Shown here: positions 46,688 through 55,702 of the stretch, in pieces
How the letters are laid out: the number at the start of each line of letters is the position of its first letter
Position numbering within the stretch: position 1 is the stretch's first letter
Source: Bacteroidota bacterium
GTDB taxonomy: Bacteria; Bacteroidota; Bacteroidia; CAILMK01; JACPUW01
Direction of reading: 5' to 3'
NCBI GenBank assembly: GCA_016192035.1
Contig: JACPUW010000035.1
Span: 116,323 to 180,322, forward strand
DNA length: 64,000 nucleotides
Program-made: the position numbers and the translations under genes
Notes under the pieces: generated by a model
Told to the model about the DNA's origin: nothing
Seen by the model: only the letters and a program-made list of their open reading frames with translations
The model's database searches: none

Positions 46688-47434
46688 TCATTCCATTGCC
46701 TTGGGCATTTTTTTTCGCAATTCAAAATTCTGCCCCAGATATACTTTTCTCACCATCTCGTCGGCGGCCAAATGCTCTGCGGTGCCGGCATTTAGGATTT
46801 TTCCTTCAAATAACAGATAGGCCCTGTCGGTAATGGAGAGTGTTTCCTGCACGTTGTGGTCGGTAATAAGAATGCCTATGTTTTTGTATTTCAGGGTAGC
46901 CACTATGCCTTGAATATCTTCTACCGCTATGGGGTCCACCCCGGCAAAAGGCTCGTCGAGCAAAATGAATTTAGGGCTAACCGCCAGGGCCCTGGCTATT
47001 TCCGTGCGGCGGCGCTCCCCGCCAGAGAGTAAGTCGCCCCGGTTTTTGCGCACCTTGTGCAGGCCAAACTCGTCGAGGAGCATTTCCAAGCGGGCCTTTT
47101 GCTCCTTCCTGCCCAAATGGGTCATTTCCAGTATGGCTTTTATGTTGTCTTCCACACTCAGCTTTCTAAAAACGGAAGGTTCTTGCGGCAGGTAACCTAT
47201 GCCCATTTGGCCACGCTGGTACATGGGCGATTTGGTTATGACCTTGCCATCCAGTAGGATATTGCCCGAGTTGGGCTTAATAAACCCTACTATCATATAG
47301 AAGGTAGTGGTTTTCCCCGCCCCGTTGGGACCCAACAATCCCACTATCTCGCCTTGGTCCACCTCTATTGACACACCATTTACCACGGTGCGCTTACCAT
47401 AGGTCTTAACCAGGTTTTCGGCGGTTAACTTCAT
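46688..47434 (-). CDS. lptB: LPS export ABC transporter ATP-binding protein
   Basis: The ATPase that drives lipopolysaccharide extraction and transport with LptFG. From the ATG at 47434 it has 248 residues; a longer frame would extend into recJ. Walker [21 protein letters not shown]-loop [20 protein letters not shown], signature [16 protein letters not shown], Walker [21 protein letters not shown] and H-loop [20 protein letters not shown]. The GVDPIAV context is LptB-specific among ABC ATPases. It overlaps recJ by ATGA. Confidence 0.96.
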
Positions 47435-49137
47435 GATTGCAAAAGTTTTATATCTTTTATATTGAGTTGCAGGTACCTGTTGTCCCGCCACTGGCGCCAT
47501 TCCAGGGTGTAGCAAAGGTCGGCCACCGGTTGGGCACACAGGGCCTCGTAGTGGGCAGCCAGGTTAAATGCCACTGCGTCTATAATGCCCCCCTGTGGGG
47601 TGCGCACCTGGAAACGCATGTGGTTTCCCGACATTACACTAAGGTTGATTACCGGTATCCCACGGCCCACAAAAACGGGACGCATGTTCATAGGCCCAAA
47701 GGGCCCCATACGCTCTATGTTTTTGAGTAAGGTCCAGCCCAGGTGGCCTATGCCCATCTCCATGTCATACCAAACCTTGGGAACCAGCATGTCAGTGCTT
47801 AGGCGATTTCTTACCGCTTGGTCAAACCGATGCTTGAACAGCTCCAAGTGTTCCCGGGGCAGGGAAAGCCCCGCCGCTGCTTGGTGCCCACCAAATTTTT
47901 TAAATAGGTCGCGGCATTCGCTCAGTGCGTCGTAGAGGTCAAAACCATCTACGGTCCTGGCGCTCCCTACCAGCAGTCCGTCATCGCCATTGGTAAGTAC
48001 CACGGTGGGTTTATATACTTGTTCCACCAGTTTGGCCGCCACTATGCCTACCACCCCCTTGTGCCAGTGAGGGGCATACGCCACGGTACAGAGCGAATGT
48101 GCCTGAAAGGCATCATGTGCCATGATTTCCAGGGCTTCGGCAACCATATCCCGTTCCAGCTCTTTCCTGTGGTCGTTTAGTTCGTTCACGCCCTCGGCCA
48201 GTTTGCCAATTACCAGAGGTGCCCCCCCAATGAGAAGTTCCACCGCGCTATGGGCATGGGCCAGCCGCCCGGCGGCATTGATTCGGGGGCCCAGTTTAAA
48301 CACCACGTCGGCTATATCATATTGGCGCTCATAGCCTGCGGTTTCCTTGAGCTGTGCTATGCCAGGTAGTGGGTTGGCATTGAGTTTCTCCAAGCCAAAG
48401 TGGGCCAGTATCCGGTTCTCACCAGTTATTGGGACTATGTCTGATGCTATGCTCAGGGCTACCAAGTCAATGTATTGGAAAGGGTCAGCCCGCAACACGG
48501 CAACCTTTAGGTTTAGGGCACACGCCAGTTTGAACGCTATTCCGCAACCACTCAATTCTTTATAGGGGTAGGGGCAACCTGGCTTTTTGGGGTTTAGTAT
48601 GGCATAGGCATCGGGCAGCACAGGCCCGGGCAGGTGGTGGTCGGCTATAATTAGGTCTATGCCCAGGGCTTTTGCCATAGCGGCTTGGGCTACCGCCGTA
48701 ATGCCACAATCTATGGCCACTATTAGCCCAAAGCCATGATGGGCGGCATGGGATATGCCTTGTTCCGAAATGCCATACCCCTCTTTTTGACGATCAGGTA
48801 CATAAAAGGCTATATTGCTGTATATCTGATTCATATACAGTATCATAAGGGCTACCGATGTGGTGCCGTCCACGTCATAATCGCCGTAAAACAAAATCTT
48901 TTCGCCCTGTTCCACGGCTTGCGCTATCCTGGTCACTGCACGGTCCATGTGGTGCATTTCAAATGGGTGGTGCAGCTGGTCCACCGAAGGGTTGAAATAG
49001 GCCCGGGCACTGTCCAGGTCACTAATGCCCCGCTGGGCCATCAGGGTGGCCATCACCGTGCTTATCTTCAAGTCATTGGCCAGTCTTTCAATATCTTGCT
49101 GGGTTCCACAGTCCCGCCGCAGCCATTGTTTGTCCAT
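47431..49137 (-). CDS. recJ: Single-stranded-DNA exonuclease RecJ
   Basis: A 5'-3' ssDNA exonuclease for recombination and repair. 568 residues, normal. DHH-domain motifs [28 protein letters not shown] and the DHH signature [10 protein letters not shown], then [20 protein letters not shown]; the DHHA1 domain is in [20 protein letters not shown]. First gene of the recJ-lptB-nfeD-SPFH series, with an ATGA overlap to lptB. No TAnnTTTG match lies before its ATG; CGAAAGTA, 6 bp upstream, is one base off. Confidence 0.97.
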
Positions 49138-49172: not shown

Positions 49173-49180
49173 TACCTTTG
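49173..49180 (+). promoter_or_regulatory. -7 box TACCTTTG for the porin gene
   Basis: TAnnTTTG match 11 bp before the ATG at 49192. A TTTG lies upstream with a shortened 15-nt spacer. It marks the true 5' end of the gene. Confidence 0.5.
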
Positions 49181-49191
49181 GCTCCAACAGC

Positions 49192-50381
49192 ATGAAGGCA
49201 TACCGCCAAACTTTCACCCCTTTTGAAATTCTAAGTGCACTGGCGCCAGGCGCAGTACCACAAGTTGTCGTGCCACATGGGGCTTTTTGTTGGGGGAAAC
49301 TGTTCGTGGCTTTGGTCGTCCTGCTCTTGGGCAATACCTGCGGGGCGCAGCCCGACACGGCGCTGGAGCAAAAGGCAGTCGTACACTTTTCGGGGTTCAT
49401 GGATGTGTATTATGCCTATGATTTCAATAGGCCGCAGGCGGGCATTCGCCAACCATTTTTTATAACCATAACCGGCACAAGGAGTGCAACCTTAATCTTG
49501 GCCTTATTAGGGCAACAATAAAACACCCCAAATACAAGGCCAACCTGGCATGGCAGGCAGGCACATATGCCATGGACAACTACGCTGGCGAACCCCAAAT
49601 GCTCCGCCATGTACATGAAGCCAATATTGGCCTGTGGCTCCACAAGAAAAATGGACTACGCCTGGATGCCGGAATTTTTAGTTCCATAATCGGTTTTGAA
49701 TCTGCCATTTCCATTGACAATTGGACATTGACCCGCTCATTGATAGCTGAAAATTCACCCTACTATCTTACCGGTGTCAAGTTGACCTACTTGCCTAACC
49801 ACACCTGGGAGGTGGTAGGCATGGTTTGTAATGGCTGGCAACGCATTAAAATGGTGCCCGGCAATTCCCTTCCTTCCTTGTGCACCCAGGTTAAGTTTAC
49901 CCCTTCGGAGAAGGTATGCCTGAATTGGAGTTCGTTTACCGGTACCGACGCCCCCGACACCACCAGGCGCATGCGATATTTTCATAATTTTTATGGCCAA
50001 TTCCAATTCAGCCCCAGGTTGGGTTTAATAGCTGGCATTGACCTTGGCAGTGAGCAAATAAACAAGGGTAGTCACAAATACGGTAGTTGGGTTGGAGCAG
50101 CTGTCATGGCGCGTTATGAACTGTGCAACCACTGGGCCACCGCGTTAAGGGCTGAGTACTACCATGACCCAAGGGGCATCATCATTGCCCCATCGGCGAT
50201 TGGCGGTTTCAAGGCATCCGGCATCTCAGCCAATGTGGACTATAAGGTGAACGGAGACTTTTATTGCCGATTGGAAGCGAGGTGGTTAGGTAGTGATGAC
50301 AGGATTTTCCAACAGCAGGGCCGAATGGTTGGGAACAATTTTTTTATTGTATCGTCCATGGCCTTGCGTTTTGATAAATAG
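49192..50381 (+). pseudogene. Outer-membrane beta-barrel porin, frameshifted at a T6 tract
   Basis: Encodes a porin-like barrel of about 395 residues in two frames. Frame 1 (49192-49521) starts MKAYRQTFTPFEILSALAPG, has a hydrophobic segment (LFVALVVLLLGNTCGAQ) and the family phrase FSGFMDVYYAYDFNRPQAG, then goes out of register after RQPFF. The T tract at 49456-49461 has six T. With seven, the frame continues FYNHNRHKECNLNLGLIRAT into YKANLAWQAGTYAMDNYAGE and the second part (to 50381), which has NGLRLDAGIFSSIIGFESAI, TLTRSLIAENSPYYLTGVKL and the ending MALRFDK, all typical of this barrel family. The cause is a one-base loss in the genome, phase variation, or a sequencing error. Confidence 0.85.
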
Positions 50382-50535: not shown

Positions 50536-51471
50536 ATGAGTATAAAAATCGTATTCATGGGAACCCCTGGTTTCGCGGCTGCGAGCCTTAGGGAGCTAAT
50601 AAAGGCCGGAATGGACATAGTGGCGGTGGTAACGGCGCCCGACCGTCCGTCTGGGCGTGGCCTGCAGGTTCACCAGTCGGAGGTAAAGCAAATGGCCCTG
50701 GCCCAGGGCCTGCCCATACTCCAACCGGAAAAGCTAAAGGACCCTGAATTTGTGGAATTATTGGCCAGCTATCGGGCTGATTTGTTTGTGGTAGTGGCAT
50801 TTAGAATGTTGCCTCAGGTTATATGGGCCATGCCCCACCGGGGTTGTATAAACCTGCACGCATCCCTACTGCCCAGCTACCGGGGGGCGGCACCCATCAA
50901 TTGGGCCATAATCAATGGGGAAACCAGGACAGGGGTTACTACTTTTATTATTGAAAAAGAGATAGATACAGGAAGTATTATCTTGCAGGAATCCCTAGAA
51001 ATTGCCCCCGATGAAACAGCCGGCGAGTTGCACGACCGGCTCATGGAACTGGGGGCAGCACTGATGGTGAAAACGGTTGAGGCAGTTAGGGACAACAAGG
51101 TAATATCCGTAAGTCAAGGAATCGCTAAAGATGCGCCCACTGCCCCCAAGATATTTAGGAATGACTGTGCCATTCAATGGAACAAGCCTTTGAGCCAGGT
51201 CTATAATCATATTCGGGGTTTGTCGCCCTACCCCGGGGCCTGGACCCTGCTGCACGGCAAGGTGCTCAAGGTGTATGCTGCCAAGCCCATATTTGGGGCA
51301 GCGCAGGGGGCTGTCGGGGCTTTGTCATTGGAAAACAATTCGTTGCTTGTAACGGTGCCTGATGGATGTTTGGAATTGCTGGTCATACAATTAGAAGGGA
51401 AAAAACGATTGACGGGCGAGGCGTTTGCCCGGGGGTATGACATACAGGGCGCATGCCTGGGGATGGGGTAG
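50536..51471 (+). CDS. fmt: Methionyl-tRNA formyltransferase
   Basis: Formylates initiator Met-tRNA with 10-formyl-THF. 311 residues, normal length. Start IKIVFMGTPGFAAASLRELI; the PDRPSGRGLQV loop; catalytic motif INLHASLLPSYRGAAPINWA with the essential Asn, His and Asp set (the Asp is in EKEIDTGSII). The C-terminal tRNA-binding domain holds IRGLSPYPGAWTLL. It is a single gene here; def is not adjacent. Convergent with a lipoprotein gene, 5 bp between the stops. Confidence 0.97.
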   Translation: MSIKIVFMGTPGFAAASLRELIKAGMDIVAVVTAPDRPSGRGLQVHQSEVKQMALAQGLPILQPEKLKDPEFVELLASYRADLFVVVAFRMLPQVIWAMPHRGCINLHASLLPSYRGAAPINWAIINGETRTGVTTFIIEKEIDTGSIILQESLEIAPDETAGELHDRLMELGAALMVKTVEAVRDNKVISVSQGIAKDAPTAPKIFRNDCAIQWNKPLSQVYNHIRGLSPYPGAWTLLHGKVLKVYAAKPIFGAAQGAVGALSLENNSLLVTVPDGCLELLVIQLEGKKRLTGEAFARGYDIQGACLGMG

Positions 51472-55564: not shown

Positions 55565-55572
55565 CAAAGGTA
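55565..55572 (-). promoter_or_regulatory. -7 box TACCTTTG directly before tilS
   Basis: TAnnTTTG match on the minus strand, 4 bp before the chosen tilS ATG. It supports that start and a leaderless transcript. Confidence 0.45.
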
Positions 55573-55692: not shown

Positions 55693-55702
55693 GGGGGGGG
55701 GG
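55693..55702. repeat. G10 homopolymer between tilS and cinA
   Basis: Ten consecutive G in the divergent gap, about 80 bp upstream of the cinA -7 box and 120 bp from the tilS box. Long G tracts are unstable and can change length. Confidence 0.9.

Follow-up and report, generated by a model that had tools for sequence, protein, structure and literature searches.

Why do two reading frames of one porin meet at a short run of T residues in this Bacteroidota genome? The window, i.e., the whole 64-kb stretch of DNA analysed here, has exactly six T residues at positions 49456-49461 of the plus strand. The original prediction placed the break of a porin gene at this tract, and it was found that both frames indeed belong to a single porin of the Pfam family PF07642 (BBP2, OmpL-like). 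The upstream frame opens at ATG 49192 or GTG 49270. Until it reaches the T run at 49461, it encodes a signal-like hydrophobic stretch and the first barrel strand, and it reads MDVYYAYDFNRPQAGIRQPFF before passing into off-family sequence; a stop codon at 49519-49521 closes it. The downstream frame (49461-50381 with its stop codon) begins with YNHNRHKECNLNLGL and has 306 stop-free codons from 49461 to 50378. Further stop codons in the joined frame, on whose absence the original prediction depended, were sought and none was found. A homology-free search for a change point in codon usage pointed to 49429-49506, the interval within 3 log units of the best position. A T6 run alone is commonplace, with 111 runs of at least six identical bases in the window. 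A null allele of the BBP2 porin gene, created by a recent single-base frame change inside the T run, is the reading that I moderately favour.

The C-terminal part matches positions 30-339 of the BBP2 profile with 277.7 bits, over the cut-off of 26.2. The N-terminal part by itself matches positions 2-27 with 16.5 bits (E 0.0054), below the same cut-off, and almost no profile positions are lost at the junction. For comparison, an intact relative, L035 of Siphonobacter sp. BAB-5405, covers positions 2-339 with 346.1 bits. The source genome (2.98 Mb in 44 contigs; completeness 100, contamination 0.11) has only two BBP2 matches, which are the two halves of this porin, so that it carries a single BBP2 gene. 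The gene lies between a divergent recJ (47431-49137, minus strand; NCBIfam TIGR00644, 512.7 bits) and fmt downstream (50536-51471, plus strand; TIGR00460, 252.8 bits). No NCBIfam model was found for the downstream half or for L035. Among the viral contigs searched, one stretch fits a pattern and no relative of the porin was found.

What would the intact protein look like? A model of L035, built from an alignment of 31 sequences, has 16 long strands (mean pLDDT 87.2, pTM 0.84). The first residue of the downstream part of the window protein aligns to L035 residue 35, which lies between the strands at residues 8-21 and 43-55; the two frames thus join in the gap that separates predicted strands 1 and 2. 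If intact, the protein would probably be an ion-conducting porin of 16 strands, and the two halves as they stand could not form the barrel in one chain. The best solved folds for the model are OprO and OprP (Z 26.7 and 26.6, rmsd 3.1-3.2 over 305-306 residues), the pyrophosphate and phosphate porins of Pseudomonas aeruginosa, while general porins trail from Z 24.4 downward. Foldseek alone ranks OmpM1 first and places VhChiP and Omp32 also above OprP and OprO by E-value. The likeness to OprP and OprO is one of fold at 11-12% identity; those two are anion-specific, and the common fold shows no function. Sequence relatives of the BBP2 family profile were not found in the PDB at E values up to 1.

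In the null-allele reading, codon choice for Pro-Phe-Phe-Tyr would have given rise to the T run. A ribosome setting out from the native start codon would stop soon after the signal peptide and the first of the barrel strands. The remaining 15 strands would lie in the other frame, lacking a signal peptide and hence export. Because the gene is split between two frames in this way, the allele should make no working pore.

How old is the lesion? I counted deviations at 97 alignment columns that are conserved in at least 90% of sequences, using the window protein and 86 relatives (identity above 38%, near-full coverage of the query, no stop). The window protein deviates at 16 of the 97, and its nearest intact kin deviate similarly (L002, 16; L003, 17; L006, 16; L007, 19), while the mean of the 86 relatives is 3.6 and an outlier, L038, has 33. 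Since these deviations are alike, the lesion is younger than the divergence from L002, L003, L006, and L007. The window protein is divergent along with its own lineage and not decayed beyond it. In a simulation of neutral decay with 20 mutations (1.8% per site), the gene remained free of a further stop or indel in 5.5% of runs when 10% of mutations were indels, and in 46% of runs when none were. Thus, any real lesion is probably young: neutral change stays below about 2% on the assumption that indels make up 10% of mutations, and the bound weakens otherwise. A pseudogene in gradual decay would look different: no stop occurs in the 306 codons and the deviations equal those of intact kin, although the start region is ambiguous.

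The start region deserves separate attention, as it had been claimed that the flanking coding sequence shows no other damage. This holds for the 306 downstream codons but is less clear at the 5′ end. ATG 49192 leaves about 36 residues ahead of the hydrophobic signal core, GTG 49270 is an alternative start, and codon usage does not single out a frame at 49250-49309. Given this ambiguity and the frame-neutral codon usage, a second small lesion may exist in the start region. A lost start codon was considered as such a lesion and was not counted; L003, a copy from the same genus, likewise has no ATG near the signal core. The box said to lie at the gene start is present: TACCTTTG at 49173-49180 of the plus strand, 11 nt before ATG 49192, fits TAnnTTTG, the -7 consensus of Bacteroidota. 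The window has 41 matches to TAnnTTTG on both strands. Besides that of the porin, 16 of 40 lie just 4-30 nt ahead of the ATG of an ORF that is 150 aa or longer (my count, which includes some intragenic boxes and has no shuffled control). Since so many boxes have a similar ATG, the layout of TACCTTTG and its ATG is ordinary in this window. The spacing between box and ATG suggests very short 5′ leaders in this organism.

Could the T run have been misread or misassembled, with living cells carrying an intact gene? I regard this as rather unlikely, while noting what speaks for it. The change is a single homopolymer base, the remaining gene is open, and its conservation equals that of intact kin. 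Decay simulated with 10% indels seldom leaves so clean a gene (the 5.5% of runs above). Apart from one base there is no mark of gene death, and an isolated assembly error would explain that equally well. Cleanness is weak evidence, however, when the zero-indel simulation leaves nearly half of the genes intact. A Pfam scan of 61 window ORFs (one antisense ORF dropped, one overlapping ORF swapped for its plus-strand rival, and both porin halves added) revealed no other split gene, although a split with a short N-terminal piece would escape it, as the porin did at threshold. Pfam families hit by two or more ORFs of the window comprise just a secretion-tail domain and two domains of EGF type. The picked ORFs of at least 150 aa, which were called mechanically, contain 90 runs of at least six identical bases and 29 of at least seven. 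A T7 run at 50339 in the same porin gene keeps the frame. All 11 TonB-barrel matches of the genome have an uninterrupted frame, 636 to 1253 codons long. Thus, general homopolymer trouble in this assembly is unlikely, and one isolated error in the T run is possible.

The original prediction had also offered a phase switch, in which tract length changes from cell to cell and turns the pore on and off. In its favour, the run is a homopolymer in the 5′ part of a surface-protein gene, and similar tracts act as gene switches in other phyla. However, T6 is short in comparison with the switching tracts of Campylobacter jejuni, which are mainly G9 and G10 according to PMC8355987. Nor is a tract retained in relatives: the longest T run in the 15 nt around the homologous site is six in 4 of 88 aligned loci and seven or more in 0 of 88. 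The site itself reads mostly x-F-[V/I/L/A]-Y in relatives, where the second Phe is a variable position. In a contingency locus one would look for a repeat tract that is long or conserved, and neither is seen here. Phase switching is therefore very unlikely, and the frame break is recent or technical, not a phase switch on present evidence. Of what was first offered, the data support a recent break by one base, whether real or technical.

Still less credible is recoding, in which slippage of the ribosome or of RNA polymerase on the T run would yield some full-length porin: the required step is -1 and both Phe codons are TTT, so that re-pairing is possible, but the upstream frame reads A TTT TTT instead of the canonical in-frame heptamer X XXY YYZ of a programmed -1 frameshift, shuffled sequences fold as well as the 79 nt after the run (z -0.08), and intact relatives pass the homologous site in a single frame.

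The frame break itself is ordinary, whether a recent null allele or an error of a single base. Where does the porin belong among its relatives? BBP2 matches at E of 0.001 or below occur in 28 of 60 related genomes. None of them is close: the best are 51% identical over the downstream part (a genome of another family) and 49% identical (the same genus); a relative from the same family reaches 56%, but over a fragment of only 110 residues. In the tree, which excludes L109 because its frame continues into kdpD and includes the partial L029, the window protein groups with L003, L002, and L029 (support 100/99). It sits on a long branch and has an unusual amino-acid composition; long branches meet there, and the inner order is unsure. 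The excluded L109:4001-5992, from a Chitinophagaceae MAG, is a stop-free porin frame that runs into a KdpD sensor-like domain and represents either a fusion or a lost stop codon. In L008 (G012:C43:116601-117233), the BBP2 match spans query residues 96-306 only and has two in-frame stop codons; from these stops and the partial match, the BBP2 gene seems to decay elsewhere too. Five loci of Pseudomonadota (L060, L101, L102, L105, and L106), including Nitrosospira, Nitrosovibrio, and Nitrotoga, i.e., ammonia- or nitrite-oxidisers and others, are close BBP2 relatives in one clade, and one of the five, L106, is flanked by a Kup gene.

The relatives revealed a second trait, a link to potassium uptake. 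K+-uptake genes were found in flanks of up to 4 kb at 60 of 80 named loci, of which 55 have Kdp genes, five have Kup, and 20 have neither; these are the best 80 of 155 relatives, chosen as nearest to the query and thus biased to close kin, and the neighbour counts have no matched control family. Most of the 60 have the order kdpABC-porin-kdpD. All 52 ORFs with a KdpD sensor domain in these flanks share the strand of the porin, and 48 of them start from 16 nt before to 129 nt after the porin end (my count). The flanks were also scanned with KdpB, KdpA, Amt, and PII motifs. At loci lacking the KdpB motif, a Pfam scan of 99 of the 109 flank proteins listed gave five K_trans, five KdpD, and three KdpC. 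The queries for neighbours were taken from the loci themselves: Pfam bears out the identity of TrkH, TrkA, Kup, the KdpD sensor domain, and the DUF4118 kinase, and a separate search that of the KdpA of G032, while the KdpB and KdpC query proteins were labelled by eye.

In the 60 related genomes the link is looser. In four of the five with KdpA over the cut-off, a BBP2 match lies no more than about 4 kb away, and KdpA over the cut-off occurs in four of the 28 BBP2-bearing genomes. Against the K+ reading, by my count only seven of the 28 have BBP2 within about 4 kb of KdpA (G004, G011, G026, and G032), Kup (G026, G051, and G052), or TrkH (G020), where TrkH was sought in the fetched flanks only. 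Kup itself occurs in 35 of the 60. In G020, the BBP2 gene (L114) lies beside TrkH-TrkA and a DUF4118 histidine kinase; in G052, one (L118) lies beside Kup and a DUF4118 histidine kinase, and a second BBP2 gene of 476 aa adjoins Kup. More distant BBP2 genes also lie beside Kdp (L024 and L028) or Kup (the 476-aa gene, L118:3545-4972), and by these neighbours the K+ neighbourhood extends past the nearest BBP2 group.

The window copy differs from the group in two respects, the split into two frames and the absence of adjoining K+-uptake genes. The porins of Siphonobacter (L035) and Flavobacterium zepuense (L045) are 45-51% identical to it, with the same length and the same predicted barrel, and they sit between kdpC and kdpD, whereas the window copy sits between recJ and fmt. 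The window genome has one TrkH match and, at E 0.001, no match for KdpA, KdpD, Kup, or Amt. The closest kin, G001 of the same genus and G002 of the same family, have no K+ neighbour of BBP2 in the stretches fetched and no KdpA or Kup match either. The G001 copy retains an open frame, and that of G002 is cut by contig ends. Since G001 also has neither Kdp nor Kup and yet its frame is open, the missing Kdp and Kup are insufficient alone for the loss of the porin. In the window genome, the orphan location away from any K+ operon may have made this loss tolerable.

What, then, might the BBP2 group do? Passage of K+ through the outer membrane is usually credited to general porins. From the neighbours of the relatives, the group may serve as an outer-membrane entry pore for K+, and the intact porin of the window genome perhaps did so as well. 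A bolder proposal is that high-affinity K+ uptake has in this group a dedicated pore of the outer membrane, feeding uptake through Kdp or in some lineages Kup or Trk, an OprP-like channel for potassium; the window would then show such a pore cut loose from its operon and caught at its loss in a lineage without Kdp or Kup. I put this forward tentatively, as somewhat less than an even prospect. A BBP2 domain is also present in the porin KSMBR1_3177 of Kuenenia stuttgartiensis, which is reported to be highly upregulated under ammonium limitation in the one paper found that names this domain (PMC7438415). Ammonium is a small monovalent cation as well, and this induction speaks for a pore for cations rather than for K+ alone. 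A BBP2 porin serving ammonium through an Amt link was considered for the window genome and rejected; in contrast to the ammonium context of KSMBR1_3177, no Amt family match is present there. Among the papers listed, no title or abstract opening mentioned a link between BBP2 and Kdp. If the proposal is true, the porin encoded with Kdp would be a potassium-dedicated channel, and one could ask if permeability of the outer membrane restricts growth when K+ is very scarce. Pfam calls the family only a putative porin; the comparison gives it a candidate role that can be tested, and this link, inferred from gene neighbourhoods, is a more useful outcome than the frame break.

Another homopolymer of the window is a likelier candidate for slippage than the T6. 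A G10 run at 55693-55702, the longest homopolymer in the window, lies between the divergent tilS (minus strand) and cinA (plus strand), upstream of a -7-like box of tilS at 55572. The run falls within a mechanically called ORF and is probably upstream of the real gene.
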